A stretch of DNA of 48,309 nucleotides, taken from assembly GCA_023249475.1 (NCBI GenBank), contig JAHFCO010000015.1, forward strand, positions 1 through 48,309. The letters run 5' to 3'. The notes under the pieces are model-generated. The model made no database searches. It worked only from the letters and a program-made list of their open reading frames with translations, and was not told the origin of the DNA. This document shows, in pieces, positions 967 through 20,470 of the stretch. The translations under genes were made by a program, and so were the position numbers. Position 1 is the first letter of the stretch. Every line of letters begins with the position of its first letter. The DNA comes from Bacillota bacterium (lineage in GTDB: Bacteria; Bacillota_I; Bacilli_A; Erysipelotrichales; Erysipelotrichaceae).

Positions 967-988
967 ACATTCGAAAGGGGGAGTAGAA

Positions 989-2179: not shown

Positions 2180-2196
2180 GGGCAAGGAGGGGAAAT

Positions 2197-3099
2197 ATGC
2201 CTGTCTCAATTGAAGTTCGCAATAATCGTATCCATGTCGTTGACGCCGTTGTCAATAACAACAGGATCACCTGTAAGAAAGCATTCTCACTCGATCTACC
2301 GGATGGAGTTTTGGATGCAAAGGGAATCATTGACAACATGCAGTTCGCTAGAATTCTTGAATCGGGACTGGAGATTCATCATGTCAAGTCGAAAAAAGTG
2401 ACATTATGCATCAATAACCCTTCGATTATCTATCGCGAACTCGTCGTTCCACGCGTCGATGACAAGAAGTTGGCGTTTGTAGTGAGATCGGAAATGATCA
2501 GTTCACTTAACCTAACCAATGAATACATCATCGATTTCATCATTCTTGATGAATTCATCGATCAGCATAAACCTTTCTATCGTATCCTGGCTGCAGCGAT
2601 CCTTGATTCGGCGATGAAATCCTTTGTGGATACTCTCTACACGATTAAGCTTAAACCAACCGTTGTCGAAACAAGTACAAGTTCGATCATCAAGTATGTC
2701 GATATGAGTGGCGTTGTCGACAGTGGGGAACCCATCATCATTGCGGATATCGAAGATGGAACTTTGAAACTTTATCTTTTTGAAGATAAGAAATATGTTC
2801 TCACTCGAAACACAAAAATCACGGATTATTCCATGGACGACAAAAAAGCATTAATCGGTGTAATTGAAGACAATATCAACAAAATGGTTCAATTCCAATT
2901 CACACGTCCTTCTCATGTTGGGATCAAGAAGATATTCTTGGTCGGTAAAGTCGATTTCCTAAATGAAGCTTGTCTCAGTATCAACGATAGTTTGCAAATC
3001 GAAACCTTAGTCTTCCCACAACCCAGTTTTGTCCTCGATGAAACCAATACCCCTCACTATTATAAAATCTACGCTGCCGGCGCACTGTTGAGGAAATAA
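2197..3099 (+). CDS. pilM: Type IV pilus assembly protein PilM-like (actin-fold)
   Basis: This 300-residue soluble protein resembles PilM, the cytoplasmic actin-like protein that binds the N-terminus of PilN and links the pilus alignment complex to the ATPase. Visible support includes the opening SIEVRNNRIHVVDA strand pattern, the NNPSIIYRELVVP segment near residue 70 (in PilM this is the region before the nucleotide-binding core), and IIIADIEDGTLKLYLFE near 185. Sequence conservation is weak, and the call leans heavily on its position between pilC and pilN/O-like genes. AAGGAGG ends 7 bases before the ATG. The next gene starts 2 bases after its stop codon, suggesting coupled translation. Confidence 0.78.
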   Translation: MPVSIEVRNNRIHVVDAVVNNNRITCKKAFSLDLPDGVLDAKGIIDNMQFARILESGLEIHHVKSKKVTLCINNPSIIYRELVVPRVDDKKLAFVVRSEMISSLNLTNEYIIDFIILDEFIDQHKPFYRILAAAILDSAMKSFVDTLYTIKLKPTVVETSTSSIIKYVDMSGVVDSGEPIIIADIEDGTLKLYLFEDKKYVLTRNTKITDYSMDDKKALIGVIEDNINKMVQFQFTRPSHVGIKKIFLVGKVDFLNEACLSINDSLQIETLVFPQPSFVLDETNTPHYYKIYAAGALLRK

Positions 3100-3101
3100 T
3101 C

Positions 3102-3677
3102 ATGAAAAAACAGAACATTAACTTAATGGAAGGTTTCTCGGCAATCGAGAAACGCAGGTCTGCGAAATCGGACAGAATCTTGGTTTTCATGGCAATGTTT
3201 CTATCGGTCATCCTGATAATTAGTGCTTTCTCCTTTAAGCTTTTCCTTGACAACAATGATCTGAAAGATCGGATCAAAGTCACTGAAGCCTATGTCAATG
3301 ACCCTGTGCTTAAAGAAAGAATATTAGCCATCGAGGTAATGCAGTCGAAAATCAACGACTTGAATGAAATCGATAAAATTCTGGATGAACTGAACGCATC
3401 GTTCGAAGTATTTCCGAGGATCAATACATTGTCGTTACGGGTGATTACGTCAAACATGCCTGCAGGGACATCGCTTAAGTCGTTAGGCTTCGATGGACAA
3501 TGGTTCACGATTCAATTAATAAGCCCGAATTATTCCGAACCTTCGAAGTTTGCGGTGAATCTTCGTGATTCTGAGTTCTTTGAAGAAGTGATCTATCAAG
3601 GTTATACTTCCGAAGTCGTGAATGGAGTTACCCGATATGTCGGAAAAGTCGTCGCGATCTTGAAGGTAGGTGAATGA
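3102..3677 (+). CDS. PilN-like pilus alignment protein
   Basis: This 191-residue bitopic membrane protein has a short cytoplasmic head (residues 1-25, with INLMEGFSAIEKRR resembling the conserved PilN INL.P motif). A single membrane segment follows at about 28-50 (VFMAMFLSVILIISAF), then a coiled-coil-prone stretch near 55-95 and a small alpha/beta domain. PilN pairs with PilO to join the platform to PilM. Its place directly after pilM and before a PilO-like gene supports this, although overall similarity is low, as is usual in this family. It begins 2 bases after pilM, with GAGG 9-12 bases ahead of the ATG. Confidence 0.72.
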   Translation: MKKQNINLMEGFSAIEKRRSAKSDRILVFMAMFLSVILIISAFSFKLFLDNNDLKDRIKVTEAYVNDPVLKERILAIEVMQSKINDLNEIDKILDELNASFEVFPRINTLSLRVITSNMPAGTSLKSLGFDGQWFTIQLISPNYSEPSKFAVNLRDSEFFEEVIYQGYTSEVVNGVTRYVGKVVAILKVGE

Positions 3678-3678
3678 T

Positions 3679-4362
3679 ATGAAACTAACAAAACGTGAAC
3701 AAGTACTACTCTTCATCTTGGCGTCGATCGGCGTCGTAGCCGCAGCATTTGTATTCGTGATCATACCGCTCAATAAGTCGATTGAAGAAAATACTGCTAA
3801 ACTTCAGGAGCTTGAAAGTAGAAAAATTGTTATGGAAGCCAAGTTGCTATTGGAGAACAAGATCGAATCTGATTTGGCGGCGGCGATTGTCAAAGTAAAT
3901 GAAAAGTTTAGCAGAATCGAATCGCCTCTGTTTGCTGCTGAATTCGAACGTTGGTCATTGCCATATTTGACGAAGAATGCGGTGGCCATGGTCAGTTTGG
4001 AAGTAGCGGATCCATTTCTGTCGACGCCTGAAGTACCGTTGTATGTCAACGCAGGATTCCAATATCATGTTCGTGAGTTGGTGGATAGTTACAATCAGAC
4101 AATTGCCGAATCCAACACGATTCCGACCACCGAAGCCGAATTGGTTCGTACGGTTGTGAAATTCAACTTCAAGACATCATACGTCGTATTCAGTAATTTC
4201 TTGGATGAGATCGCATTTTGGGATACCACCGCGTTTGTTACGCATTCGTTCTATGATTTTGCGCAACAGTCAGGGACGGTCACCATCGATTACTACACGA
4301 TCACGAAACTTGAAGACCAACCGAACACCAATGAAGAAGAGCCGGTAACACCAGCTCAGTAA
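3679..4362 (+). CDS. PilO-like pilus alignment protein
   Basis: This 227-residue protein starts with a basic head, then one membrane span at about residues 8-32 (LLFILASIGVVAAAFVFVIIP) and a coiled-coil stretch to about 75, followed by an extracytoplasmic domain. This is the PilO architecture. The ATG at 3679 is preferred over the GTG at 3670 because AGGTAGGTG lies at a good distance upstream, and it starts just after the pilN-like stop (TGA 3675-3677). The C-terminal tail is rich in Glu, Pro and Asn (NTNEEEPVTPAQ). The partner is the PilN-like protein. It is the last plus-strand gene before the oppositely oriented peptidase gene. Confidence 0.7.
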   Translation: MKLTKREQVLLFILASIGVVAAAFVFVIIPLNKSIEENTAKLQELESRKIVMEAKLLLENKIESDLAAAIVKVNEKFSRIESPLFAAEFERWSLPYLTKNAVAMVSLEVADPFLSTPEVPLYVNAGFQYHVRELVDSYNQTIAESNTIPTTEAELVRTVVKFNFKTSYVVFSNFLDEIAFWDTTAFVTHSFYDFAQQSGTVTIDYYTITKLEDQPNTNEEEPVTPAQ

Positions 4363-4364
4363 AT

Positions 4365-5117
4365 TCATCCGAAGATAAATCCAAGATACCAATCCGCGAT
4401 TTGAACACCGTAAAGTAGAGCAATATACATTCCGACACACAAGAACGGTCCGAATGGAATCATCGCTTTTCCTTCCTTCTTGAAGAAAAGCATGAGGATG
4501 ACTCCCCAGAGTCCACCCATCAGAATTCCAAGGAAGGTACCGACGAGTGTTACTTTGATTCCAAGGAAGAATCCGGCAACCCCCATCAACTTGACATCCC
4601 CTCCACCGATACCTTGTGTGAGGATGGCGATGATGTAAAGAGGGATACTAACCACAAGCCCTCCAAGGATGGCTGATGGAAAACTCGAAATATTTGTGAT
4701 GAGTCGAAAGATTGCGAGGAGTAGAATCACGACGAGAGTACCGTCATAGACATCCATGGTGTCGAAATCGATCATCGCGATGACAAGTAACGTTGAACTG
4801 AAAGCCATCATGAGCAGGCTATCCAGTGTCAATCCAAAGAAAGCGAATACGCCTAGATAGAGGAATCCGCTGAGAAGTTCGATCAACGGATATCGAATTG
4901 AAATCTTGGTTCCGCAGTTTCTGCATTTTCCACCCAAGATGAGATAACTTAGCACAGGAATTAAGTCATAGGGTTTAATCTTCTCGTTGCAGTTCATGCA
5001 ATGAGACGGACCATAGACGATCGACTCATGTTTCGGTAAACGATAGATGACAACATTTAAGAATGAGCCGATGATAAGTCCAAAGATAAGAAGCAAAGTT
5101 CCGTAAAGGATTGGCAT
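4365..5117 (-). CDS. pilD: Prepilin peptidase / N-methyltransferase PilD (A24 family)
   Basis: This is the membrane aspartyl protease that removes the leader from type IV prepilins and usually methylates the new N-terminus. With the chosen start it has 250 residues. The N-terminal domain has GSFLNVVIYRLP and a zinc-type CMNC...CRNC pair. The catalytic aspartates are in the membrane-embedded AMIDFDTMDVYDG and GGGDVKLMG motifs. About seven to eight membrane segments are visible. The ATG at 5117 follows a GGGAGG ribosome site, which is better than the upstream GTG at 5162. It faces the pilus genes and shares its upstream region with pilB. Its substrates here should be the pilin at 7987 and perhaps the first gene of the window. 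Confidence 0.93.
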   Translation of the reverse strand: MPILYGTLLLIFGLIIGSFLNVVIYRLPKHESIVYGPSHCMNCNEKIKPYDLIPVLSYLILGGKCRNCGTKISIRYPLIELLSGFLYLGVFAFFGLTLDSLLMMAFSSTLLVIAMIDFDTMDVYDGTLVVILLLAIFRLITNISSFPSAILGGLVVSIPLYIIAILTQGIGGGDVKLMGVAGFFLGIKVTLVGTFLGILMGGLWGVILMLFFKKEGKAMIPFGPFLCVGMYIALLYGVQIADWYLGFIFG

Positions 5118-5128
5118 AAAAGAAGATC

Positions 5129-5160
5129 CTCCCATATACAAGACATTATAAAGAATGGGC
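5129..5160 (-). promoter_or_regulatory. Candidate promoter of the prepilin peptidase gene
   Basis: On the minus strand a perfect TATAAT lies about 25 bases before the chosen ATG at 5117, just ahead of its GGGAGG site. The -35 region is weak (TTTCAT-like, 17-base spacing). It would let pilD be expressed apart from the plus-strand pilus operon. The box is seen directly; promoter function is inferred. Confidence 0.45.
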
Positions 5161-5192
5161 ACAGTAAATGAAAGCAGAACAGGAGAAATTGA

Positions 5193-6875
5193 ATGAAGGC
5201 GATTCCACTAGGACAATTGTTGATTGAAGAAGAAATCATCACCGAAGATCAATTGAGCCAGGCGTTAGCTTTACAGAAAACCGTAAAGAAACGTATCGGC
5301 GTATTGATCACGGAGTTAGGGTTTGCGTCCGAGAAGGACATCGCAAAAGCACTTTCACGTCGTCTCAAAGTAGACTATGTGGATAATCCGATTTTCAATA
5401 TCGAAGCCGATGTTGTCAAACGGGTGCCTGAGGTGTTGGCGCGTAAGTATCGAATCGTTCCACTGAATATCAGGGAAGGGACATTGACAATCGCCACGAA
5501 CGATCCATTAGACTTCTCATGTCTGGAAGATGTCGGGATGATAACCGGGATGGAAATCACGACTGTGCTCTCCACCAGTACCGAAATCGAGAAGGCGATC
5601 GACCGTGTTTACGCGAAACGTAATGCGGACGAAATCATCGATGACATTAAGCAAGAATATTCAGAATTGAACTTCCAGTCACCGACGATGGAAGAAGCGG
5701 CGATCGTCGAACGTGTCGACTCCGCACCGGTCGTAAAATTAGTTAATTCCTTGATTCTTGAAGCCTACCAACAAAATGCTTCCGATATCCATATCGAGCC
5801 ACAAGAGCACTTAACAAGAGTTCGGTTCCGTGTTGATGGTGATTTACAGGAACATACCGATTTCTCAAACGATTTCCACAGTTTACTTACAACCCGCATC
5901 AAGATTATCAGTGGTATGAACATCGCTGAGAAACGAATACCTCAAGACGGTTCATTCACCGTCAACAATGACTTCATCCATGTCGATATGCGTGTTTCCA
6001 GTTTACCGACTCCTTATGGAGAGAAGATCGTAATGCGTCTCTTAGGCGCCAACCGATATATTGACTACAATTTGCCAGCGTTGGGGTTATCACCTCAAAC
6101 CATGGAACAAGTCGAACGTGCGATGTTGTTCCCACACGGAATATTACTTGTCACTGGACCAACCGGAAGCGGTAAAACGACGACCCTCTATGCCATGTTG
6201 GCGAAACTATCCAAACCGAAAGTCAACTTGGTTACGGTTGAAGATCCGATTGAACGTCGCTTTGAAGGGATTACCCAGGTGCAAGTCAACCCGCGAGCCG
6301 GACTTACGTTTGCCAGCGGACTTCGTTCCATCTTGCGTCAGGACCCCGATGTCATCATGGTTGGTGAAATTCGTGATAGCGAGACCGCTGAGATTGCGAT
6401 TCGAGCCGCCATTACCGGACACTATGTCTTGTCCACCATCCATACCAACGATGCATTGTCGACGGTTACTCGTTTAGTGGATATGGGAATCGAACCTTAT
6501 CTTGTTGCATCCTCTGTCAAATGTATTATCTCGCAGCGTTTAGTTAAAAAGATCTGTACGCACTGTAAGACGGAAGTTGAAATCAGTGCGACCGATAACC
6601 GTCTCCTTCAAACCAGCCTGAAAACGGCGAAAGTTGGAAGAGGCTGTCAACACTGTAATTCAACCGGATATTCCGGAAGAACCGCAGTCCACGAAGTGTT
6701 GATGATTGATCAGGGAATGGAGGAGTTGGTTTCTAGAAGAGCTTCGATGGATGAACTTCGCAGATACACCCGTGAGCGTGGGATGCGGATGTTGCGGGAT
6801 GAAGTCCTCGACCTTATAAACAAGGGGGTGACGACCGTCGAAGAAGGTATCCGTATTCTGTATTCAGTCGATTAA
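5193..6875 (+). CDS. pilB: Type IV pilus extension ATPase PilB (GspE/PilB family)
   Basis: This 560-residue cytoplasmic hexameric motor powers pilus assembly. An N-terminal MshEN-type domain (residues 1-150, starting LGQLLIEEEIITEDQLSQAL) precedes the ATPase core. The core shows Walker A GPTGSGKTT at about 322-330, an Asp box, Walker B DPDVIMVGEIRD and a His box STIHTNDA. A tetracysteine zinc site follows (CTHC near 458 and CQHC near 490), typical of PilB and absent from PilT. The ATG at 5193 has AGGAG upstream. It is followed 14 bases later by pilT. All key catalytic motifs are intact, so it is probably functional. Confidence 0.96.
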   Translation: MKAIPLGQLLIEEEIITEDQLSQALALQKTVKKRIGVLITELGFASEKDIAKALSRRLKVDYVDNPIFNIEADVVKRVPEVLARKYRIVPLNIREGTLTIATNDPLDFSCLEDVGMITGMEITTVLSTSTEIEKAIDRVYAKRNADEIIDDIKQEYSELNFQSPTMEEAAIVERVDSAPVVKLVNSLILEAYQQNASDIHIEPQEHLTRVRFRVDGDLQEHTDFSNDFHSLLTTRIKIISGMNIAEKRIPQDGSFTVNNDFIHVDMRVSSLPTPYGEKIVMRLLGANRYIDYNLPALGLSPQTMEQVERAMLFPHGILLVTGPTGSGKTTTLYAMLAKLSKPKVNLVTVEDPIERRFEGITQVQVNPRAGLTFASGLRSILRQDPDVIMVGEIRDSETAEIAIRAAITGHYVLSTIHTNDALSTVTRLVDMGIEPYLVASSVKCIISQRLVKKICTHCKTEVEISATDNRLLQTSLKTAKVGRGCQHCNSTGYSGRTAVHEVLMIDQGMEELVSRRASMDELRRYTRERGMRMLRDEVLDLINKGVTTVEEGIRILYSVD

Positions 6876-6889
6876 AGGGGGGATGACCC

Positions 6890-7948
6890 ATGTTCGACAA
6901 AATCCTTGCTTATGCACAAAAGGAACTTTGTTCCGATATCCACCTTGCCGGTGGATCCGTCCCAATCGTTCGTCTTGATGGATCTCTGATTCCGTTCGCA
7001 ACCGAAGTCATGTCAAACACCGAAGTGCTCGGTTATGCCTATGCGATTCTCAACGAGCAACAACGTGAAATCTACGAAAACGGGTACGATGTGGACATGG
7101 CGTTTGCCGACCGATATGGCAATCGCTATCGTGTCAACGTCTATCGTTTCCGCGGGAATTGCGCAATTGCCATTCGTTGTCTGCGTGGATCGGTTCCCAC
7201 CATCGATGAATTGAAACTTCCACCTGTTTTGAAAGATTTGGCAATGCTTCCCCGCGGATTGGTTTTAATCACAGGACCTACCGGGAGTGGTAAATCCACC
7301 ACCTTGGCAGCCATGATCGATGAAATCAATGCGAACAAGCGCTGTCATATCCTTACTCTTGAAGATCCGATTGAATATGTATTCGAGCCTAAATTGTCGA
7401 TGGTACATCAACGTGAGATCCATGCCGACTTCCGCGATTTCGCATCAGCCCTACGCGCTGCGCTTCGCGAAGACCCGGACGTAATCCTCGTCGGGGAAAT
7501 GCGTGACCACGAAACCATCAGTTTAGCGCTCACTGCAGCCGAAACCGGACACTTAGTCCTCTCGACACTGCACACCACGGGTGCCGCAAGCACCATCGAC
7601 CGTATTATCGACGTGTTTCCGCCCCATCAACAAGGGCAAATCCGCACCCAATTGGCAAGTTCATTGCGTGGTGTCGTTTCTCAGGAACTCATCCCGATCA
7701 ACGAAGGTCGCGGACGGGTCATGGCTAACGAGATCATGATCATGACCGATGCGATCGGCAATTTGATTCGCGAGAACAAGATCGTTCAGATCAACTCCGC
7801 GATTCAGACCGGTATGCGCATCGGGATGCTATCCCTGGACGCCTCATTGGTTAATCTTATCCGTCAGAATCTGATTTCAGTGGAACAAGGGATGTCTTAT
7901 TCGAACAATCCCGAGGCCATGAAACGCTTGTTGACAACATCTTACTAA
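6890..7948 (+). CDS. pilT: Type IV pilus retraction ATPase PilT
   Basis: This 352-residue protein has PilT length and layout. A PAS-like N-terminal domain precedes Walker A GPTGSGKST at about 129-137, an Asp box ILTLEDPIEY, Walker B DPDVILVGEMRD and the His box STLHTTGA. The PilT-specific C-terminal segment is altered relative to the textbook AIRNLIRE (here AIGNLIRENK). PilT depolymerises the pilus and powers twitching or DNA uptake, so the system is probably dynamic rather than a static fimbria. GGGGGG precedes the start. The pilin gene follows after a short gap. Confidence 0.95.
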   Translation: MFDKILAYAQKELCSDIHLAGGSVPIVRLDGSLIPFATEVMSNTEVLGYAYAILNEQQREIYENGYDVDMAFADRYGNRYRVNVYRFRGNCAIAIRCLRGSVPTIDELKLPPVLKDLAMLPRGLVLITGPTGSGKSTTLAAMIDEINANKRCHILTLEDPIEYVFEPKLSMVHQREIHADFRDFASALRAALREDPDVILVGEMRDHETISLALTAAETGHLVLSTLHTTGAASTIDRIIDVFPPHQQGQIRTQLASSLRGVVSQELIPINEGRGRVMANEIMIMTDAIGNLIRENKIVQINSAIQTGMRIGMLSLDASLVNLIRQNLISVEQGMSYSNNPEAMKRLLTTSY

Positions 7949-8380: not shown

Positions 8381-8407
8381 CAAAAAAGAAGCGCTATTGC
8401 GCTTCTT
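8381..8407 (-). terminator. Intrinsic terminator of the gcv operon
   Basis: On the minus strand a 9-base stem AAGAAGCGC / GCGCTTCTT with a 4-base loop ends in a T6 run. It overlaps the last bases of gcvPB, including its TAG stop at 8394-8396. Confidence 0.8.
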
Positions 8408-9836
8408 CCGGTGTATATTTCAGAATCGGATGACGGGCTGCCAAGACATCGTCGACACGTTTGATCGGCATCGTCGTGGGTGCGTCGAGGAGGACTTGGG
8501 GATTCGTGTAGGCAAGAGCGTGGATTTCACGTAGGACTTCGATCGCTCTGTCCAGTGTTTCTTTGCTTTCGGTTTCCGTGGGTTCGATCATGAGGGCTTC
8601 ATGGACGATGTTGGGGAAATACATGGTCGGGGGATGGATGCCGTAATCCAGAAGGGCTTTGGAGACGTCTTTGGCGGTAATGCCGGTTTCGTCTTTGAGT
8701 TTTTGGCAGCTGACCACGAATTCATGCATACAGGGGCTTACGTAGGCGACGGGATAGAGATCGCTGAGCTTGGCCATCATGTAGTTGGCGTTGAGAACGG
8801 CGTTCTCACTGGCTTCTTTGAGGCCTTCTGCGCCGAGGCTTAAAATATAGGTAAGCGCACGGATGTTGGTGAGGAAGTTGCCATAGAACGAGCGCATCCG
8901 ACCGATGGGGAACTCGCTGGAAACGGTGAGTTTCTTTTCTGTGGGATGAAGGGTTCCTTTAGGTAGGAATGGGACCAGGCAAGACTTGACGCCGACCGGT
9001 CCGCTGCCCGGTCCGCCGCCTCCGTGAGGGGTGGAGAAGGTTTTGTGGAGGTTGAGATGGACGACGTCGAATCCCATGTCTCCGGGGCGGGCGATGCCCA
9101 TGATGGCGTTGAGATTCGCGCCGTCATAGTAGACCAAGCCTCCGGCTTCATGGACGAGACGACTGATTTCCAGGATGTTTGGATCAAATAAGCCTAGAGT
9201 GTTGGGGTTTGTCAGCATCAATGCGGCCACTTCGTCGTTGAGGACGGATTTCAGCGCTTCCACATCCACGCCGCCCTTATCGTTGGACGGGACGGAGATG
9301 ACGGAGTAACCCGCCATCGCGGCGGATGCGGGGTTGGTGCCGTGGGCCGAATCGGGGACCAAGACTTTCGTGCGTTTGAGGTCGTTGCGGTGCTGGTGGT
9401 AGGCATGGATCAACAGGAGTCCCGTGAATTCCCCGTGGGCGCCGGCGGAAGGCTGAAGGGTGAACGCGTCCATCCCGGTGACTTCACACAATGCGGAGGA
9501 GAGTTCTTCCATCGATCGGAGCGCGCCGGAGACGGTGGATTCAGGTTGAAGGGGATGGATGTGGGCGAATCCCGCCAAGGAAGAGGTTTCTTCGTTGATC
9601 TTGGGATTGTATTTCATGGTGCAGGAGCCCAAGGGATAGAACCCGTTGTCGACACCGAAGGCTTGACGGGAGAGTTCCATGTAATGACGGACGAGATCGA
9701 CTTCCGCGACTTCTGGGATGGAAGGGGCGCTTTGGCGGGTCAGCGCTTCGTCGATCTGAACGAGTTCAACGTCGAGGGGAGGGAGTTCCGAGCAGCGGCG
9801 ACCGACACTGCTGAGTTCGAAGATCAGCTTACTCAT
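8394..9836 (-). CDS. gcvPB: Glycine dehydrogenase (decarboxylating) subunit 2, GcvPB
   Basis: The C-terminal half of the split P protein, 480 residues. It decarboxylates glycine with PLP and passes the aminomethyl group to lipoyl-GcvH. The PLP lysine is in HLNLHKTFSTPHGGGGPG, the usual P-protein motif, with the glycine-rich loop right after it. GSCTMKYNPK near the N-terminus is also family-typical. The start at 9836 is chosen because AAGGAGG precedes it and it overlaps the gcvPA stop by 4 bases (ATGA); a longer reading to 9905 is junk in the gcvPA frame. Length fits GcvPB of Bacillota. It is the last gene of the riboswitch-controlled unit. Confidence 0.96.
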   Translation of the reverse strand: MSKLIFELSSVGRRCSELPPLDVELVQIDEALTRQSAPSIPEVAEVDLVRHYMELSRQAFGVDNGFYPLGSCTMKYNPKINEETSSLAGFAHIHPLQPESTVSGALRSMEELSSALCEVTGMDAFTLQPSAGAHGEFTGLLLIHAYHQHRNDLKRTKVLVPDSAHGTNPASAAMAGYSVISVPSNDKGGVDVEALKSVLNDEVAALMLTNPNTLGLFDPNILEISRLVHEAGGLVYYDGANLNAIMGIARPGDMGFDVVHLNLHKTFSTPHGGGGPGSGPVGVKSCLVPFLPKGTLHPTEKKLTVSSEFPIGRMRSFYGNFLTNIRALTYILSLGAEGLKEASENAVLNANYMMAKLSDLYPVAYVSPCMHEFVVSCQKLKDETGITAKDVSKALLDYGIHPPTMYFPNIVHEALMIEPTETESKETLDRAIEVLREIHALAYTNPQVLLDAPTTMPIKRVDDVLAARHPILKYTPEEAQ

Positions 9837-11146
9837 GCGAGCACCTCCTTCAGGATGGCTACGACACGATCCAGGTCGTCTTTCGTGCTGGTTTCGGTGA
9901 CGCACCAGAGGATGCCGGTGTCATCCAAGGGGAGACCGGAAAGAATCCCATGGTTCGAAAGGACTTCTTCGACTTTGAATGAGGGAAGGGGTCCGTCGGT
10001 GACAAATTCATGGAAGAAGGAGGAATCATAGCGGAGTTTGAATCCGAGGGTGGACAATTGTTTGAAGAGATAATGGGCTTTGGAGGTGCACTGCGTCGCG
10101 ACGTCCTTGAGCCCTTGCGGACCCATGGCGGCCAGATACATTCCTGCGGTCAGAGCGCAATGCGCCTGGTTACTGCAGATCGAACTGGAGGCTTTCTCGC
10201 GTCGGATGTGTTGTTCACGGGCCTGAAGGGTAAGTACGAACGCGCGTTTACCGTCCAAGTCGAGGGTTTGTCCGACGATGCGTCCGGGGAGACGACGGAC
10301 CATGTCGGTGGTCGTGGCCATGTAGCCGAGGTACGGACCGCCGAAGGACATGGGAAGTCCTAAAGGCTGCGCTTCGCCGACCGCGATGTCCGCGCCTTGT
10401 TCACGCGGTGTTTTCAAAACACCCAAGGTCATTGGGTTGGCGGAGACGATGACTTTCGCCCCCGCTTCATGGGCGAGTTTCGCCAAGCCTTCCACGTCTT
10501 CCAGGATCCCGAAGAAATTGGGTTGCTGGAGGACAAGGCAGGCGGTTTCAGTGGATAAAAGGGACTTCAACGATTCCACATCCACCTTGCCGTCCTTGAT
10601 CTCGACTTCTTTCAAGGTGATCGGTAACCATTGGGTATAGGTTTTCACCGTCTCCAAGGTTTCCGGGTTGACCGACTTGGGGATCAAGGCGATCGTCCGT
10701 TTGCGGTCGCTGGTCATGTTGACGGCTTCCGCGACCGCGGACGCTCCGTCATAGACGGAAGCATTGCAGGCATCCATGCCGGTGATGGCGCAGATCGACG
10801 ATTGATATTCGAAAATGGATTGCAGGATCCCTTGGGATAATTCGGCTTGATAGGGGGTGTAGGCGGTGACGAATTCTTCACGACCGCTCAGTTGACGGAC
10901 GACCGCCGGGATGAAATGGGATTCCGACCCCGCTCCGCGTAAGACGACATCGTAGACCGTGTTCTGGTTGGCCAGATGTTTCATATGGCGCAGGACTTCG
11001 AGTTCGCTCTTTCCCTTGGGAAGGTTCAGCGGACGCTGAAGCATGACGTCCTGTGGGATCGAGGCATAGAACGATTTCTCGTTGATCCCCGCTTCCGCAA
11101 GCATCTTCTCCCGCTGTTCTTTGGTGTTGACGACGTAGGAGGCCAT
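9833..11146 (-). CDS. gcvPA: Glycine dehydrogenase (decarboxylating) subunit 1, GcvPA
   Basis: The N-terminal half of the split P protein, 437 residues, which forms a heterotetramer with GcvPB. It has the aminotransferase fold but lacks the PLP lysine. Recognisable parts are FIPAVVRQLSGREEFVTAYTP near residue 75, YQSSICAITGMDACNASVYDG near 115, and LGYMATT. Length is typical (about 440-450). The start follows the gcvH stop by one base, with AGGAAC upstream. Split gcvP genes are the rule in Bacillota, whereas most other bacteria have one long GcvP. Confidence 0.95.
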   Translation of the reverse strand: MASYVVNTKEQREKMLAEAGINEKSFYASIPQDVMLQRPLNLPKGKSELEVLRHMKHLANQNTVYDVVLRGAGSESHFIPAVVRQLSGREEFVTAYTPYQAELSQGILQSIFEYQSSICAITGMDACNASVYDGASAVAEAVNMTSDRKRTIALIPKSVNPETLETVKTYTQWLPITLKEVEIKDGKVDVESLKSLLSTETACLVLQQPNFFGILEDVEGLAKLAHEAGAKVIVSANPMTLGVLKTPREQGADIAVGEAQPLGLPMSFGGPYLGYMATTTDMVRRLPGRIVGQTLDLDGKRAFVLTLQAREQHIRREKASSSICSNQAHCALTAGMYLAAMGPQGLKDVATQCTSKAHYLFKQLSTLGFKLRYDSSFFHEFVTDGPLPSFKVEEVLSNHGILSGLPLDDTGILWCVTETSTKDDLDRVVAILKEVLA

Positions 11147-11147
11147 G

Positions 11148-11519
11148 TTAGTGTTCCTGTGCCAGCAGGGTATCGTATTGATCTTTGGTCAGCAATCCGG
11201 TCCGATCGAAGTTACCTTCGACCTTCAGGATCCACGTCCCCATCGCATCTTCATTCAGTTTTTCAGGCGTGTTCACCAAGACGTCGTTGGTTTCGACGAC
11301 CGTCCCGCTGATCGGTGAAATCAGGTCGCTGACGGCTTTGACGGATTCGACGTCGCCGAAACGGGTCGCTTCTTCGACCTTGTCGCCGGCTTCCGGCAGG
11401 TTGACGTAGACGATGTCCCCTAAAGCATGTTGGGCGTAATCGGTGATGCCGATTTCGGCGTGGTGTTCATCCAGGAATTTGACCCATTCGTGGGAGGCGG
11501 TGAAAAATGTGTTTTCCAT
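11148..11519 (-). CDS. gcvH: Glycine cleavage system H protein
   Basis: This 123-residue lipoyl carrier shuttles the aminomethyl group and reducing equivalents between P, T and L proteins. The lipoylation site is Lys61 in VESVKAVSD, within an otherwise standard H-protein sequence (HEW near residue 10, GITDYAQHALGDIVYVNLP near 25-42). AAGGAG precedes the ATG. The lipoate ligase needed to modify Lys61 is encoded upstream on the same strand at 14168-15127. Confidence 0.96.
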   Translation of the reverse strand: MENTFFTASHEWVKFLDEHHAEIGITDYAQHALGDIVYVNLPEAGDKVEEATRFGDVESVKAVSDLISPISGTVVETNDVLVNTPEKLNEDAMGTWILKVEGNFDRTGLLTKDQYDTLLAQEH

Positions 11520-11531
11520 TTGATTTCTCCT

Positions 11532-12602
11532 TTATTTCCGTTTGTAGAAGGGGAGGGGGATCCGCTTGGCGGTCAATATCCTTCCCCGAACATCCAATTT
11601 GAATTCCGCGGCGTCGATCTTATCCGCATCGACGATCGCCATCGCGACCGCTTTGCCTAAGGTGGGACTCATCGTCCCCGATGTCACGAATCCGACTTCC
11701 TTGCCTTCGACATACACCGGCGTGTGTTCCCGTGCGATCCCGCGGTCGATCAGTTCTAGTCCGATCCGACGGCGTTTTGGGGCGTGCGACAGCGCTTCTT
11801 TGGCGATGAAGTCTTCCTTATCCAGTTTCACGAACATCTTCAATCCGGCTTCCAAGGGCGTGATCTCTTCGCTGAGTTCATGACCATACAAAGGCATGGC
11901 CGCTTCCAATCGAAGGGTGTCGCGACAGCCCAAGCCGCAGGCTTGTACGCCTTCGTCTTTCCCGGCCTCCAGGATCGCGCTGAACAACACCTCGGTGTCC
12001 TTCGCATCGCAGTAGATTTCATACCCGGCTTCGCCCGTATAGCCCGTGGCGCTGACCAGGCAGGGGATTCCCGCCACGTTAACCTTGTCTTTGAAACTGT
12101 AGTAGGTTTCGGGAAGGTCGTCGCAGATCTTGCCGAGTACTTCCTTCGCCATGGGTCCCTGAAGGGCGACCTGACCGATGTCCTCGCTGATGTTGGTGAG
12201 GGAGACATCCCCGAAGAGATGCGCCCTGAACCACTGTTCGTCCTTTTCGATGTTAGAGGCGTTGACGACGATCAGATACTTGTTCTCTCCCATACGATAG
12301 ACCAAGAGGTCGTCGACGGTCGTCCCGTCTTCTTTCACCAATATCCCGTAACGTACGAATCCGACTTCAAGACTGCGATAATCGTTGGTGATCAGATACT
12401 GAAGGTTCGCCAAAGCGTCTTTCCCTTCAAGGATCAGTTCCCCCATGTGGCTCACGTCGAACAAGCCGGCTTTCGTCCTTACCAGACGGTGTTCATGGAG
12501 AATCCCGTCGGGATAGTTGACCGGAAGCAAATACCCTGCGAAAGGGACGATGTTCCCCTTCAATGCCACATGCATGTCATACAACGGTGTTTTCTTTTCC
12601 AT
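11532..12602 (-). CDS. gcvT: Glycine cleavage system T protein (aminomethyltransferase)
   Basis: This 356-residue folate-dependent protein transfers the methylene from aminomethyl-GcvH to tetrahydrofolate and releases ammonia. Family landmarks are the N-terminal TPLYDMHVALKG..VPFAGYLLPV, the catalytic region FDVSHMGE, and the C-terminal GTMSPTLGKAVAMA barrel. The ATG at 12602 is chosen over an upstream in-frame ATG at 12629 because AAGGAGC sits at the right distance and the upstream option would start inside the riboswitch terminator. It is the first gene after the glycine riboswitch. Confidence 0.95.
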   Translation of the reverse strand: MEKKTPLYDMHVALKGNIVPFAGYLLPVNYPDGILHEHRLVRTKAGLFDVSHMGELILEGKDALANLQYLITNDYRSLEVGFVRYGILVKEDGTTVDDLLVYRMGENKYLIVVNASNIEKDEQWFRAHLFGDVSLTNISEDIGQVALQGPMAKEVLGKICDDLPETYYSFKDKVNVAGIPCLVSATGYTGEAGYEIYCDAKDTEVLFSAILEAGKDEGVQACGLGCRDTLRLEAAMPLYGHELSEEITPLEAGLKMFVKLDKEDFIAKEALSHAPKRRRIGLELIDRGIAREHTPVYVEGKEVGFVTSGTMSPTLGKAVAMAIVDADKIDAAEFKLDVRGRILTAKRIPLPFYKRK

Positions 12603-12616
12603 GGTGCTCCTTGCGC

Positions 12617-12649
12617 AAAAAAAGCGCACAAAGTAATGTGCGCCTTCGT
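12617..12649 (-). terminator. Regulated intrinsic terminator of the glycine riboswitch
   Basis: On the minus strand a 7-base stem GCGCACA / TGTGCGC is followed directly by T7, 15 bases ahead of the gcvT start. The stem can be lengthened at its base by pairing GAAG (minus-strand reading of 12644-12647) with the first Ts of the T-run. Those four bases also belong to the predicted closing stem of aptamer II, so the two folds compete. Confidence 0.8.
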
Positions 12650-12793
12650 TCCTTGTACCTGAAAGATTCTCCTTGCGGATTGCTTCTTCGGTGGATTTCT
12701 CGCTCTACGAAGTTTCGTCCAAATCCGGTCCTTTTGCCTGAGAGTTTCTGCGCTTTGCTCCTTCGGCTCCTATGTGGTCTCTCCCGGATTCTT
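12644..12793 (-). promoter_or_regulatory. Tandem glycine riboswitch controlling gcvT-gcvH-gcvPA-gcvPB
   Basis: Read on the minus strand, the leader contains the glycine aptamer signature CCGAAGGAGCAA followed by AACTCTCAGGCAAAAGGAC (aptamer I, about 12721-12793). A second, more degenerate copy follows: CCGAAGAAGCAA, then AATCTTTCAGGTACAAGGA (aptamer II, about 12644-12712). Aptamer II can be closed by CTTCGT (12707-12712) pairing with ACGAAG (12644-12649). A terminator follows at once. Glycine riboswitches of this tandem form usually turn on gcv genes when glycine is plentiful; the terminator layout here fits an ON switch. Confidence 0.93.
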
Positions 12794-12812
12794 CATTCGA
12801 TCTACCGTACTC

Positions 12813-12841
12813 ATTATACGTTCTGCCTTGTGAAAACTCAA
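12813..12841 (-). promoter_or_regulatory. Promoter of the riboswitch-gcv unit
   Basis: On the minus strand TTGAGT (12836-12841) and a perfect TATAAT (12813-12818) are spaced by 17 bases. The -35 box overlaps the TGA stop of lpdA, so gcv transcription can start independently of lplA-lpdA. Confidence 0.8.
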
Positions 12842-14166
12842 TGAAGAGTCTTGCTTTTCTCAAGAATGCTCGCGGCGAGTTCGCCGATCGCTTCGCTCAA
12901 CGTCGGGTGGGGGTAGATGATGGTGGTAGCTTGGGTGAAGGGGATTTTGTTTTCCATCAGGAAGGTGAAGAAAGGAAGGAACTCGGATGCGTCGCTGAGA
13001 TAGAGCGATACGCCGAGGATCAGGTTGTTTTCGTCCAGGTTGACGCTGAGATAGCGTCGTCCGTCGCCTTTGATTTTCTGTTTGGCCAATGCTCCCAACG
13101 GTTGTCTGTAACTCCGGTAGGGGATGCCTTTGGCTTTGAGTTCTTCCTCGCTCATCCCGATCCAGGCGGCTTGTATAGGCGTGTAGATCGCATTGGGGAT
13201 GATGAAGGGAAGAACGGGGGTCTGGTGGATCATGTGGTCCATGGCGAGAAGCGCCTGACGGGTCGCCACATGCGCCAACTGGATGCGACAGGACGCATCG
13301 CCGACGCTGTAGATGTGCTCGACACTGGTCTGATAGTTGGAATCGACCTGAATCAAACCGCGCTCCACGACCACTCCCGTCGCGTTGAGGTTGAGACTGT
13401 CGATGTTGGGGATCCGTCCCGCACAGAGGACGACGACATCGAAGGTCTCGACCTGGTCGTTGAACGCGACGGTAAAGTCCGACCCTTGCGTGATCTTGAC
13501 GATCTCGATCGACGTGAGCACGCGGATGTTTTCTTTCTTGTAGTCCATCATCAGACTCTGAACCAAGTCCTTGGGGGCGTTGGGCAGGATCCTCGCTTCT
13601 TTCTCGAAGATCGACACGTCGTGTCCCAAGCTATGGTACAGCGCGGCCAGTTCGATCCCGATGACCCCGCCTCCGATCAAAAGGATCTTTTTCTTGGAAG
13701 GGAACGGTTGGAACAGCGCATCGTCGCTGGTCCACAGTTTCGCGTTTCCCGGGAAATCGAAGACCCGGTTCTTACTTCCGGTCGCGATCAGAATAGAGTC
13801 GGCCATAAGGGTTTCATCGTTGACACGGATCGTATGGTCGTCGACGAAGGTCGCTTCCCCTTGGATCAGTCGGATTTTCCTGGCGGAAATCTGTTGGTTC
13901 AAGGTCGCGGTCAAGTCCGCGACGATCTTGTCTTTGCGTGCATACATCGCGCTTTCGTCGATCTGCGTCAGTCCATAGTTCCTGCGTGCCAGATCGATCG
14001 TATGGGCTTCCTCAAGCAAGGCCTTGGTCGGGATGCAACCGCGCTGAAGACAGGTCCCGCCGACCTTGTCCTTTTCGATCAGGATGGTTTCCCATCCCGC
14101 ACTCGCCGCTTTCAATGCGGCGGCCGTCCCTGCCGGACCGGCCCCCAGAATGATGATCTTTGTCAT
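12838..14166 (-). CDS. lpdA: Dihydrolipoyl dehydrogenase (L protein)
   Basis: This 442-residue flavoprotein disulphide reductase reoxidises the dihydrolipoyl arm of GcvH with NAD+. The FAD-binding GAGPAGTAAA motif is at residues 8-17. The redox-active pair is in GGTCLQRGCIPTKAL (near 36-50), the NAD site is GGGVIGIELA near residue 165, and the C-terminal catalytic His-Glu pair is in YPHPTLSEAIGE. Placement between lplA and the gcv unit suggests it serves glycine cleavage; a role in another lipoyl complex cannot be excluded from this window. It starts one base after the lplA stop, with GAGGGAC upstream. Confidence 0.95.
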   Translation of the reverse strand: MTKIIILGAGPAGTAAALKAASAGWETILIEKDKVGGTCLQRGCIPTKALLEEAHTIDLARRNYGLTQIDESAMYARKDKIVADLTATLNQQISARKIRLIQGEATFVDDHTIRVNDETLMADSILIATGSKNRVFDFPGNAKLWTSDDALFQPFPSKKKILLIGGGVIGIELAALYHSLGHDVSIFEKEARILPNAPKDLVQSLMMDYKKENIRVLTSIEIVKITQGSDFTVAFNDQVETFDVVVLCAGRIPNIDSLNLNATGVVVERGLIQVDSNYQTSVEHIYSVGDASCRIQLAHVATRQALLAMDHMIHQTPVLPFIIPNAIYTPIQAAWIGMSEEELKAKGIPYRSYRQPLGALAKQKIKGDGRRYLSVNLDENNLILGVSLYLSDASEFLPFFTFLMENKIPFTQATTIIYPHPTLSEAIGELAASILEKSKTLH

Positions 14167-14167
14167 A

Positions 14168-15127
14168 TCAGTCCCTCAGCCAGGCGATCAGTTCGACCGT
14201 GGCCGCGTCGTTCATGTCCGAGGACGCCAAGGCATCCGCGATGATCCGCGGATCCGGAACCAACCCCAAAACCAGTTTCTCCAGTTTCTCGATCCAGCTC
14301 ACATCCATGGCATCGGAATAGATGCGGGCACGGATGATTTTATTCTGTTCGGACTGGAACTCCCAACGGATCGATCCGAAGGAGAGATAGGTTTCAAGTT
14401 TCAGTTGTTTATCGAAATGCGTCCCGTAGAGCCAGTCTTCGCTCCCAAAGAACGCGATCTTTTCTTTCGCCGCTTCCATTGGGAAAGGCAGACGATGGGT
14501 GATTTCCCCGTATTCTTCCCCCACGGCCAAGAGACAAGCTTGTTTAACTTCCTCCAGACCGACGGGTTTCACATCGCACAAATTCATGATCCTGGCTTTC
14601 ACGCTCTCGACGCTCTTGCGTTTCAACTTCGCCTCGCTGACCGTCAAGTATTTCCCCAGCTTCTCTTTGTCCACGTTGAACAAGATGGTCCCGTGATGCA
14701 AGCCGAAGCCGTCGCGTTTCAAGAACGCGTTCCCCGAGACTTTCGCCCCGTTGATTTCAATGTCGTTGCGTCCGCTGACCAGGGCGTCGAACCCCAGTTT
14801 TCCCAACGCCCGGGCGATGACGTTCATTTGCTTCTGTACATCGTAGTCCTTCTCTTCCAGGATGAAGGTGAAATTCACGTTGCCCAGATCGTGATATACG
14901 GCGCCTCCGCCCGAAGAGCGGCGCGCCAATCTTCCTCCGTCTTCCAACAGTTTCGTGATCGCGACCTCGCTTTGGGCATGCTGGTTTTTTCCAATGACCA
15001 CCGTGTGGGCGTTTTGCCACAGGTAAAAACGCAGGGTGTTCTTCGGACAGGTCTCAAGCAGGAGTTCCTCGACGCCAAGATTGACGTAGGGGTCGAAAGA
15101 AGGGGATTGGTAGAGTTCGATGTTCAT
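14168..15127 (-). CDS. lplA: Lipoate-protein ligase A
   Basis: This 319-residue enzyme activates free lipoate with ATP and attaches it to a carrier lysine, here most likely GcvH Lys61. The catalytic domain shows RRSSGGGAVYHDLGNVNFTF (near 70-88), the ligand-binding loop, and SGNAFLKRDGFGLHHGTILFN with conserved Lys and His (near 150-170). The C-terminal accessory domain, typical of bacterial LplA, makes up the remaining residues. GAGG precedes the ATG. It heads a minus-strand unit with lpdA, suggesting the cell scavenges lipoate; no lipoate synthesis gene is seen here. Confidence 0.93.
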   Translation of the reverse strand: MNIELYQSPSFDPYVNLGVEELLLETCPKNTLRFYLWQNAHTVVIGKNQHAQSEVAITKLLEDGGRLARRSSGGGAVYHDLGNVNFTFILEEKDYDVQKQMNVIARALGKLGFDALVSGRNDIEINGAKVSGNAFLKRDGFGLHHGTILFNVDKEKLGKYLTVSEAKLKRKSVESVKARIMNLCDVKPVGLEEVKQACLLAVGEEYGEITHRLPFPMEAAKEKIAFFGSEDWLYGTHFDKQLKLETYLSFGSIRWEFQSEQNKIIRARIYSDAMDVSWIEKLEKLVLGLVPDPRIIADALASSDMNDAATVELIAWLRD

Positions 15128-17420: not shown

Positions 17421-18950
17421 ATGCGTCGTTTTTTCGGTTTTTTCGTCAGTAAACCGTTTACCATCCTGTTCATGATCCTGGCCGAACTCGGTCTTCTTTA
17501 CTATGTCGTCTATACCTTCAGCGTACGCTTCGTGACGCTGTATAATTTTCTGGTCGTGCTAAGCGTCATCATCGTCGTCTACCTCATCAACCGCAACGAC
17601 AATCCGTCCTACAAGCTTTCCTGGGCGGTGTTCATCCTGGCCTTGCCTTTATTCGGTGGCTTGACCTATCTTCTTTTCGGGGGGAGGAAAATCCCCAGGG
17701 CGCTGCGTGCCGGGATGATCCGCAACAACCCCGAAGGCGAACCGATCCTGAAACAGGATGAAGCCGTGCTCGAAGAAGTCGTCGCCGGCGACCCGTCGTT
17801 CGAACGACAGATCCACTATATCCTGCGCAATACCGGCATGCCGGTCTACGCCAACACCGAGACGACGTATTTCCCGATCGGGGAAGAGAAGTTCAAGGCG
17901 ATGAAAGAAGAATTGCTGAAAGCGACGAAATTCATCTTCATCGAATACTTCATCATCAACACCGGCTTCATGTGGGATTCGATCGAAGAAATCCTGAAGA
18001 TGAAAGTGAAGGAAGGGGTGGATGTCCGCGTTATCTACGACGACGGGGGTTCCATCCGGCTTCCCAGGGGGTTTCTGCGCCGATTGCGTTCCCTCGGAAT
18101 CAAGGCTTATCGCTTCAATCCGATGTCGGCCACCTTGGCGATCCAGATGAACAACCGCGACCACCGCAAGATCTGCGTCATCGACGGAAAGGTCGGTTTC
18201 GTGGGCGGCATCAACCTGGCCGACGAATACATCAACAAGAAACTCCGTTTCGGACACTGGAAGGATTGCGCCGTGATGCTGAAGGGGGAAGCGGTCTTCA
18301 GTCTGACCGTCATGTTCCTGCAGTTCTACCATTACCTTTCAAAGACTAAAGAAGATTATCTGAACTACCGTGCGGATTTCTCAAGCGATCCGGTCGAAAG
18401 CAAAGGCTATGTCCAACCCTTCACCGACAGTCCGACCGATGAGGAATTGGTCAGCGAAACCACCCACCTCAACATGATCAACGCCGCGCGGCGCTACATC
18501 TATATCATGACCCCGTATCTGGTCATCGGACACGAGATGACGCAGGCGCTCATCACCGCTGCAAAAAGCGGGGTGGACGTGAAGATCATGGTTCCGCACA
18601 TCCCCGACAAGTGGTATGTGTTCGCCGTGACGCAAAGCAGTTATGAAGAATTCACCAAGAACGGGGTGAAGATCTATGAATACGAACCCGGGTTCCTGCA
18701 TTCCAAGGTCATGGTCAGCGACGACAAGGCGGCGATCATCGGAACCTCCAACCTGGATTTCAGAAGCTACTACCTCCATTTCGAATGCGGGATCCTCTTT
18801 ACGGACCATCCCGTCCTTCGCGAAGTCAAACGCGACTTCGTCGATACTTTGCAGAACTGCATCGAAGTCACCTACGAAGATTGCCTGAAAGTGAATTTCT
18901 TCGTCAAGCTGGGACGCGCGATCCTGAAACTCTTCAGCGCATTATTATAA
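17421..18950 (+). CDS. cls: Cardiolipin synthase
   Basis: This 509-residue membrane enzyme condenses phosphatidylglycerol into cardiolipin. Two N-terminal membrane hairpins cover about residues 10-80 and are followed by the PLDc_N-type region. The two HKD phospholipase-D motifs are DHRKICVIDGKVGFVGG (near 250) and LHSKVMVSDDKAAIIG (near 430). Length and both motifs are normal. A GAGGAGGGGG ribosome site precedes the ATG. It lies between a PHP phosphatase and a patatin gene, which suggests a lipid-linked unit. Confidence 0.95.
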   Translation: MRRFFGFFVSKPFTILFMILAELGLLYYVVYTFSVRFVTLYNFLVVLSVIIVVYLINRNDNPSYKLSWAVFILALPLFGGLTYLLFGGRKIPRALRAGMIRNNPEGEPILKQDEAVLEEVVAGDPSFERQIHYILRNTGMPVYANTETTYFPIGEEKFKAMKEELLKATKFIFIEYFIINTGFMWDSIEEILKMKVKEGVDVRVIYDDGGSIRLPRGFLRRLRSLGIKAYRFNPMSATLAIQMNNRDHRKICVIDGKVGFVGGINLADEYINKKLRFGHWKDCAVMLKGEAVFSLTVMFLQFYHYLSKTKEDYLNYRADFSSDPVESKGYVQPFTDSPTDEELVSETTHLNMINAARRYIYIMTPYLVIGHEMTQALITAAKSGVDVKIMVPHIPDKWYVFAVTQSSYEEFTKNGVKIYEYEPGFLHSKVMVSDDKAAIIGTSNLDFRSYYLHFECGILFTDHPVLREVKRDFVDTLQNCIEVTYEDCLKVNFFVKLGRAILKLFSALL

Positions 18951-18962
18951 AAGGAGAACCCC

Positions 18963-19814
18963 ATGAACATCGCATTGGTATTGGAAGGCGGCGGCCTACG
19001 CGGAAGTTACACCGCCGGCGTCTTGGTTTGGTTGATCGAGCAGGGCATCGAAGCGGATACGGTCGTCGGGATTTCAAGCGGCGCCATGCATGCCTGCCAT
19101 TATGTGTTGAAAGACATCGAGGCACTGAAACTGACCTCGATGAAATATGCTTCCCATAAACATAACGTCGGATGGTATCCGCTCTTGCATGAAGGACAGC
19201 CGGTCGGATACGACTTCCTTTTCGAAACGGTCATCAAGGAAATTTTGAAATTCGATGTGAATAAACTGCGTGCCCAAAAACAAGCGGTCGAGTTCGGGGT
19301 CTATGACTTAAGCATCCAGAAAACCATCTGGAAAAACCAGTTCACCATGGACGATGACATCCGATTCCTAAAGGCCGCATGTACGCTTCCTTTAGCCGGA
19401 CGCAACGTCAAGGTCGGCGATACCTATTATCTTGACGGAGGCGTCACCACGATGGTCCCGATCGGTCGGGCGAAGGAACTGGGCGCCGAGAAATTCCTGG
19501 TCGTCGTCACCAAAGACCCCGGTTTCGTCCGCAAACCCAATAGCCCTTTCCTTCAATTCATTTTGGATCTGATGTACTTCAAATACAAAACGCTGCTGAA
19601 GGATTTCCGTGCCCGGACGCAAGTCTACTACGACGAGATGAACGAAGTGCGCGCCCTGCAAGATGAAGGCAAAGCCATCCTCCTGCAACCGACGCGCGAC
19701 TGCGGGGTCAAACGTTTCTCCGGGACCGAACAACAGATCATCGACATGTTCAATCTCGCCAAGGAAGACTGTGAGAACCGTAAGGAAGAACTCCTTGCGT
19801 TCTTTGCGAAGTAA
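18963..19814 (+). CDS. Patatin-like phospholipase
   Basis: This 283-residue protein shows the patatin oxyanion loop EGGGLRGSYTAGVL at residues 8-21, the nucleophile serine in GISSGAMHA (G-x-S-x-G, near 37-41) and the catalytic Asp in LDGGV near 160. It belongs with bacterial patatins of the YjjU/RssA type, presumed to cleave acyl esters of membrane lipids. AAGGAG precedes the start. It follows cls by 12 bases, so remodelling of cardiolipin or phosphatidylglycerol is a reasonable but unproven role. Confidence 0.9.
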   Translation: MNIALVLEGGGLRGSYTAGVLVWLIEQGIEADTVVGISSGAMHACHYVLKDIEALKLTSMKYASHKHNVGWYPLLHEGQPVGYDFLFETVIKEILKFDVNKLRAQKQAVEFGVYDLSIQKTIWKNQFTMDDDIRFLKAACTLPLAGRNVKVGDTYYLDGGVTTMVPIGRAKELGAEKFLVVVTKDPGFVRKPNSPFLQFILDLMYFKYKTLLKDFRARTQVYYDEMNEVRALQDEGKAILLQPTRDCGVKRFSGTEQQIIDMFNLAKEDCENRKEELLAFFAK

Positions 19815-19832
19815 CGCAAAAAGGAGGTCGCC

Positions 19833-20444
19833 ATGGTTAAAAACTACCGGATTCAAAACGCGAACGCCCCGAAGGAACAACTGGGCGATATCGCTTCGTT
19901 TCTCCGGATGAGTCTGGATTCGCATCAAATCATCACCCTTTTCACCAACGACCTCGATCCCAATCAGTTCACCTGCGGGATCGTCGCAGCGCTGTCGGAG
20001 ACCGGCGTGGTCTTCTCGCGGATCGACCTCTACGGATCCAACGACGGGATCGCTTGTCTCCCTGTCGACATCATCTACCGGGTCGAAGCCGACACCCCGC
20101 TGATCCAACGGGTCGCGACCTTGTGGAAACTCAACAGTGAAGAAAGCGGCGTCTATGGTTCTGCAGGCAGCGAACTGTTACGGGGCTTCCTGAAGCAAGC
20201 CTACGACGCTCAGAAAGTCGTCTCCATGGAAATCATGGATAGCCGCCGCTACGATGTTTGCGGTCTGATCGGGAAGTTGGATGAGACCTTTGTCAACGTG
20301 AACCTGCTGGATGGCAACGGCAACCCGATGGGGAGCAGTCTGGTCCTCATCGAAAGCATCACCCAGGTCGTCATGGACGCGAAGGAAGAACACACGATCC
20401 AACGTCTGTACGAGTATCAGAAGAGGGTCGGGAACTTGACGTAA
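19833..20444 (+). CDS. Unknown protein with two copies of a small beta-rich repeat
   Basis: I do not recognise this 203-residue protein. It contains an internal duplication. Residues about 30-98 (from QIITLF to RVATLW) and about 127-196 (from KVVSME to RLYEYQ) align with matching positions for Phe/Tyr-x-x-Cys-Gly, Leu-x-Glu-Thr-x-Val, Asp, two Gly, Ile and Ile-Gln-Arg. Alternating hydrophobic residues suggest strands, so each repeat may be a small barrel of Sm or SH3 type; this fold is a guess. There is no signal peptide or membrane span. It is the last gene of the PHP-cls-patatin unit (18 bases after patatin, AAGGAGG upstream) and ends at a terminator. Confidence 0.7.
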   Translation: MVKNYRIQNANAPKEQLGDIASFLRMSLDSHQIITLFTNDLDPNQFTCGIVAALSETGVVFSRIDLYGSNDGIACLPVDIIYRVEADTPLIQRVATLWKLNSEESGVYGSAGSELLRGFLKQAYDAQKVVSMEIMDSRRYDVCGLIGKLDETFVNVNLLDGNGNPMGSSLVLIESITQVVMDAKEEHTIQRLYEYQKRVGNLT

Positions 20445-20445
20445 C

Positions 20446-20470
20446 AAAAGGGGCGCACATCGCCCCTTTT
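20446..20470 (+). terminator. Intrinsic terminator after the cls-patatin operon
   Basis: A 10-base stem AAAAGGGGCG / CGCCCCTTTT with a 5-base loop; its T-run forms part of the right arm. It is symmetrical enough to work on both strands. Confidence 0.85.

Follow-up and report, generated by a model that had tools for sequence, protein, structure and literature searches.

The protein described here is encoded in a 48,309-nucleotide stretch of a Bacillota bacterium from the Erysipelotrichaceae, the whole of which is called the window. It consists of two related repeats, each with a predicted Sm-like fold, and belongs to a family that carries no name in the libraries searched. On balance it seems probable, if by no means certain, that this is a polymorphic-toxin immunity family of tandem Sm-like (Hfq-type) barrels, of which the window gene is an orphan representative. 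The reading builds on computed results: the protein is duplicated internally, one repeat is predicted to have an Sm-type fold, relatives make up a family, the gene is under purifying selection, and some members are tightly coupled to a single type of basic Rhs C-terminal tail.

The gene, its signals and its neighbours are listed in Table 1. The region holds eight terminator-like hairpins of the kind found directly after the stop codon, against 5.5 expected by chance, and given this hairpin, the transcription unit probably ends with this gene. As read from the translations, the window also contains a type IV pilus-like operon (64-7948), as well as minus-strand genes for glycine cleavage and lipoate (8394-15127).

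Table 1. Features of the gene and of its surroundings in the window
Feature	Position	Strand	Basis
CDS, 203 aa, tandem Sm-like barrel protein (predicted fold) of nameless family	19833..20444	+	ORF list, homologues
Repeat 1, residues 18-99: helix, five predicted strands, helix	19884..20129	+	alignment; model of residues 14-106
Repeat 2, residues 113-203, homologue of repeat 1	20169..20441	+	alignments
AGGAGG ribosome-binding site, strong, 5 nt upstream of ATG	19822..19827	+	sequence
Terminator-like hairpin directly 3' of stop	20446..20470	+	10 pairs, 6 G-C
Neighbour, cardiolipin synthase (cls)	17421..18950	+	TIGR04265, 335.9 bits vs cut-off 290
Neighbour, patatin-like phospholipase	18963..19814	+	PF01734, E 1.2e-15
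Pilus-like operon, ATPases	5193-6875 and 6890-7948		by reading
Pilus-like operon, inner-membrane protein	989-2179		by reading
Pilus-like operon, prepilin peptidase	4365-5162	other strand	by reading

The internal duplication suspected in the first-pass annotation is real. The Smith-Waterman self-alignment of the two halves scores 63, which none of 1000 shuffles reaches (mean 24.4, sd 4.3), and profiles of the N- and C-terminal halves of 18 members align with each other over 89 columns (probability 97.7, E 1.3e-12). Both halves of the window protein and of its sister share G, F-L, D, C-G, L-x-E-T-x-V, D, G, G, I, V, D, I-Q-R and K. The shared motifs listed earlier are present, but F/Y-x-x-C-G was inexact, since the first half has F-x-C-G and the second Y-x-x-C-G, with a one-residue indel. 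The identities at C-G, L-x-E-T-x-V and I-Q-R are peculiar to the window protein and not family-wide. Across 32 aligned family repeats, column conservation is below 90% throughout; it is highest at the strand-2 G, at the D-G turn and at the I that precedes strand 5. Among single members, the duplication is visible by self-alignment in L026 and L011 (0 and 4 of 1000 shuffles as high). It does not rise above the shuffles in L004 (863 of 1000 as high), L016 (855), the second copy of L013 (931), L014 (571) and L061 (446), where the duplication rests on the profile comparison.

Each repeat is likely an Sm-like small barrel, as judged from structure prediction. A single-sequence model of the full-length protein was unusable (pLDDT 37.5). 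The model of one repeat (residues 14-106), based on a four-row alignment of its own and sister repeats, has a pLDDT of 81.8 and a pTM of 0.68; two of the five repeat models are good (81.8 and 75.6) and three poor (37-42). Its elements are a helix (7-17), five strands, the last two of which are linked by a short helical turn, and a second helix (76-91). The first nine Foldseek matches in the PDB are all Hfq (E 1.1e-3 to 1.8e-3, probability 1.00), with none at E<=1e-3. VIA-align gives a designed SH3 barrel (Z 9.3), Hfq (8.1) and the WYL protein BrxR (8.1), in a setting where a best Z of 7-8 is common. Three matches in a viral structure library pass 1e-3, all of them uncharacterised phage proteins. 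With Hfq as the best PDB match of the one-repeat model, the earlier guess of an Sm- or SH3-type barrel is supported.

The statement that no named family fits also holds: the whole window protein matches nothing in Pfam or NCBIfam at E<=10, its two PHROGs matches have E 0.21 and 0.25, and its second half alone reaches PF18286 at E 0.069, under the cut-off. PDB sequence searches with single proteins and profiles gave nothing significant, and none at E<=10 for the whole window protein. The other members scanned have no match of weight in Pfam or NCBIfam; their best matches, isolated ones with E 0.0005 to 0.004, are to unrelated families, and the one with a printed score is under its cut-off. The 32 single repeats match at least 25 Pfam families at E<=1. 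Small barrels among those listed are Phage_Hfq (3 members), Hfq (2), LSM14, RimP SH3, two Spt5 KOW domains and the MreC core, which may be taken as a hint only, with unrelated families listed too. Phage_Hfq (PF23874) is the most frequent weak match, found with 3 of 13 members (best E 0.0096) and 3 of 32 single repeats (best E 0.034); the match with a printed score has 13.7 bits against a cut-off of 24.2. PADLOC gave three families with one member each (best E 0.012), and no paper naming the family was found in the open-licence literature.

The family is sparse and scattered. A 94%-identical copy is present in the Erysipelotrichaceae UBA12416 MAG (L002), which is apparently the genus-mate counted below as G001. 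Matches were found in 8 of 60 relatives at E<=1, in 11 of 272 genomes of the family and 14 of 395 of the class at E<=0.01 (several of the latter weak), and in 10 of 392 of the phylum at E<=0.001, where six of the ten matching genomes already had rows in the query profile. Three other families have members at E<=0.001 in 3/28, 2/8 and 6/55 genomes. Clear members occur in 17 genomes: the window genome (G000), G001, G008, G026, G635, G615, G066, G127, G124, G350, G328, G096, G283, G194, G109, G784 and G358, the last counted as clear although cut by a contig end. Weak matches left out of this count are those in G007, G009, G018, G022, G073, G140, G148, G241, G341, G421, G532, G563, G020, G190, G794 and G392. 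By reading, the weak match in G190 is inside or beside what looks like a Cas9-Cas1-Cas2 locus that includes a repeat array (L056:8572-15137).

Members are tandem barrels of 165-355 residues. They are found in 13 records of Priestia plasmids, one of them partial. One sub-branch (L052:7918-8457, L055:7977-8516 and L080:8190-8747) has support of 100/99 in the tree; by reading, its L052 and L055 members adjoin DegV-like genes, and the L080 member lies among transposase-like ORFs. Fusobacterium vincentii (NZ_CP084075.1) encodes a 305-residue relative with three or four barrels (L089:5995-6912; tblastn E 3e-3), which is less certain because its 58.3-bit HMM score carries a bias correction of 48. This ORF overlaps the next by 4 nt, the next being a cobyric-acid-synthase-like one, and the placement speaks for a non-toxin role of some members. 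Viral contigs scanned with the family profile, five relatives and the tail described below contain no relative; the sole viral-contig match of the window protein (L087) falls within a protein of another kind and is apparently due to chance. Phage records have no match for the window protein or for a Priestia member.

The clue to a function comes from genomes in which a member follows an Rhs gene, a link that the first-pass annotation missed. G283 has a 1771-codon Rhs ORF with a basic tail at its end, and the member begins 3 nt after the stop of this ORF. A second cassette 6.4 kb further on has the tail without the Rhs head, followed by a member after 22 nt. In G784, two tandem members follow the Rhs tail, the first overlapping it by 38 nt. 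Two tandem members are also present in G124, behind an Rhs tail and after a gap of 578 nt in which no other ORF on the same strand reaches 60 aa. G066 has tail and member in one open frame, and a GGAGG site precedes the member's own start. The Rhs core is recognised by TIGR03696 in G066, G124, G283 and G350, and by pattern and reading only in G784. G350 has a four-barrel member as the third ORF behind a different Rhs tail. The three small ORFs behind that tail, the last of them four-barrelled, look like a mixed immunity array (L051:7465-9977).

The tail shared by the other four genomes is of one type, with about 45-75 residues, a strongly basic composition (net charge +9 to +15) and the motif H-x-x-G-x-[AT]-R-[RK]-x-[RK]-D. 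A member is directly next at all five known tails (G066, G124, two in G283, and G784). A tail profile of four rows found four places in the 395 class genomes, with a member next at each; these include the second G283 tail, which was absent from the profile rows, and G784 evidently lies outside this sample. Against Pfam, one tail has two weak matches (E 0.1 and 0.45) and the other three none, and NCBIfam has none. Searches from the tail side gave no match in plasmids (three tails), phage records (one tail) or viral contigs.

Among 25 Rhs stretches, a core-end pattern recognises 24 Rhs C-termini in 19 of the stretches. All four C-termini with the tail have a member next or in frame, versus none of the 20 without it (Fisher 9.4e-5); in 19 of these 20 a different ORF comes next, and in the remaining one (L099) the stretch ends after 261 nt. 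This shows consistency without counterexamples and not an unbiased rate, as does the count of five out of five, because the tails were discovered through the family. Twenty of the 25 stretches, around additional Rhs loci of member-bearing genomes, contain neither tail nor member by HMM, although in six of them, including both of the genus-mate, no Rhs C-terminus is recognised by the pattern. In 4 of 14 genomes a member and an Rhs core are no more than 3 kb apart, compared to 0.12 expected (P 2.6e-6), a count that leaves out G784, G109 and G358. At the level of the family, a member follows a putative toxin C-terminus directly at five of five tails. The window genome, which is 96% complete, shows no Rhs core and no tail, so the window copy is an orphan at best. 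Its genus-mate has two Rhs loci, with no tail in the stretches examined.

The family is mostly acidic. Its median pI is 4.73, and 20 of 25 members are under 5.5, versus 36% of 97 neighbouring ORFs, a background that includes family members in those flanks. The window protein has a pI of 4.78. An electrostatic plug of the basic tail by acidic barrels is plausible from these compositions, but is not general, since the Rhs-linked members are less acidic than the others (5 of 9 under pI 5.5, with G784a at 7.6 and G283b at 6.0, versus 15 of 16). Compared with its sister (94% identity), the window gene has a dN/dS of 0.093, with 0.04 and 0.06 in the repeats and 0.36 in the 13-codon linker; seven neighbour genes range from 0.03 to 0.19. 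By this measure the gene is under purifying selection, and it is being retained for some reason, even with no Rhs core found in the genome.

If the immunity reading is correct, the basic Rhs tail would be a toxin or part of one. Within the cytoplasm the barrels would bind this tail and block it, in the manner of YxxD and the tRNase YxiD. The window copy may guard its host when neighbours equipped with a matching Rhs gene deliver their toxins. A more detailed picture is put forward tentatively, with doubts prevailing over confidence: Rhs proteins with a very short basic tail and two to four strung Sm-like barrels that neutralise it would form a nameless pair, in which the Sm fold, otherwise a binder of nucleic acids, acts as a decoy or plug, the number of barrels varies by lineage, and stand-alone copies serve as a defence against neighbours. 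This picture is weakened by the lower acidity of the Rhs-linked members.

A different possibility, which we regard as unlikely without dismissing it, is that of a general small-barrel (Sm/SH3-like) family with a housekeeping or regulatory job in RNA or protein binding, which was recruited for immunity at the Rhs loci of a few lineages, with the window copy keeping the older job. Several observations fit it or count against the immunity reading. No Rhs gene is present in the flanks read (3 to 17 kb) of 12 of the 17 clear genomes, and none is annotated within 7 kb in six annotated Priestia regions, for which the gene table is incomplete. Some placements are operon-like, such as that of the G328 member between genes read as DegV-like and NuoE-like, a housekeeping-like place, and that of the Fusobacterium relative. 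The window gene is under purifying selection in a genome with no Rhs core found, and the nearest fold is Hfq. The tree needs four changes of the Rhs label, yet its well-supported branches force only one, and this labelling of a sequence tree does not decide for the immunity reading or for the general one. Against a general family stand its sparseness in the class, where several of the few matches are weak, the variation of its positions between genera, and its presence on Priestia plasmids. The Hfq likeness could also mean that the protein is an Hfq that has degenerated and, with its protomers fused, stands in for Hfq as the RNA chaperone of the clade. Hfq (PF17209) is indeed found at E<=0.001 in none of 149 class genomes, the window genome included, versus 5 of 14 control genomes, and Phage_Hfq in 1 of 198 class genomes, under its cut-off. 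However, the family is present in only a few percent of the same clade, its members are mostly acidic, and PF17209 matches 2 of 32 repeats (best E 0.1) and not the whole window protein. Y-K-H is the motif of Hfq, and it is found in 0 of 32 repeats. Such a replacement is therefore very improbable, and the acidity and the missing motif leave the RNA role once suggested for the barrels unsupported.

The idea that the protein works with the cardiolipin synthase and the patatin in membrane-lipid turnover, to which the first-pass annotation was drawn, has hardly any probability left. It has in its favour that the gene is on the same strand as the patatin gene, starts 18 nt behind it and is followed by the terminator-like hairpin. 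However, tblastn of the window cls and patatin against 26 flank stretches places the two beside a barrel gene only in the genus-mate (L002), and there an extra ORF is inserted between patatin and barrel gene; the cls-patatin order was not found next to a barrel gene outside the genus. The inserted ORF is presumably FMN-binding.

The immunity reading has a close parallel in YxxD of Bacillus subtilis 6633 (PDB 9V8I). YxxD is a proven Sm-like-fold immunity protein of the LXG tRNase YxiD, and its acidic loop plugs the basic active site of the enzyme (PMC12700104). YxxD and the window family are alike in being acidic with an Sm-like fold (predicted here), and in YxxD the partner is a polymorphic toxin whose basic surface is covered. 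They differ in that YxxD is a single barrel of about 110 residues while the family has tandem barrels, and in that its partner is an Ntox50 RNase as opposed to a short basic Rhs tail. Structure 9V8I is not among the PDB sequence matches of the family, its presence in the copy searched being uncertain. The repeat resembles Hfq/Sm (PF17209) in its predicted helix and five-strand barrel, as reflected in Foldseek ranks 1-9 and the VIA Z of 8.1. Unlike Hfq/Sm, the family has two or more repeats per chain, is mostly acidic and sparse, and does not reach the Pfam cut-off; Phage_Hfq, too, matches with E-values too weak for membership.

In other respects the family resembles the polymorphic-toxin immunity families described in PMC3482391, with a gene right behind the Rhs C-terminus, tandem paralogues (G124 and G784) and multi-domain polyimmunity forms, such as perhaps the four-barrel form of G350. 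It is unlike those described there in that its members, as far as scanned, have no weighty Pfam or NCBIfam match. Polyimmunity and tandem immunity genes are known from that source, and orphan as well as tandem immunity genes are known phenomena (PMC9484751 and PMC3482391). If the immunity reading is true, a family that is nameless in the searched libraries would gain a function, along with a partner, the short Rhs tip, that is also nameless there. The one published Sm-fold immunity protein found (PMC12700104) would be joined by a tandem case. It would then be possible to test whether the Sm fold has repeatedly served as a scaffold for neutralising basic toxins, and for what reason orphan immunity genes are retained in genomes. 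On this reading, the family is a nameless one within a known kind of system, with a specific predicted partner.
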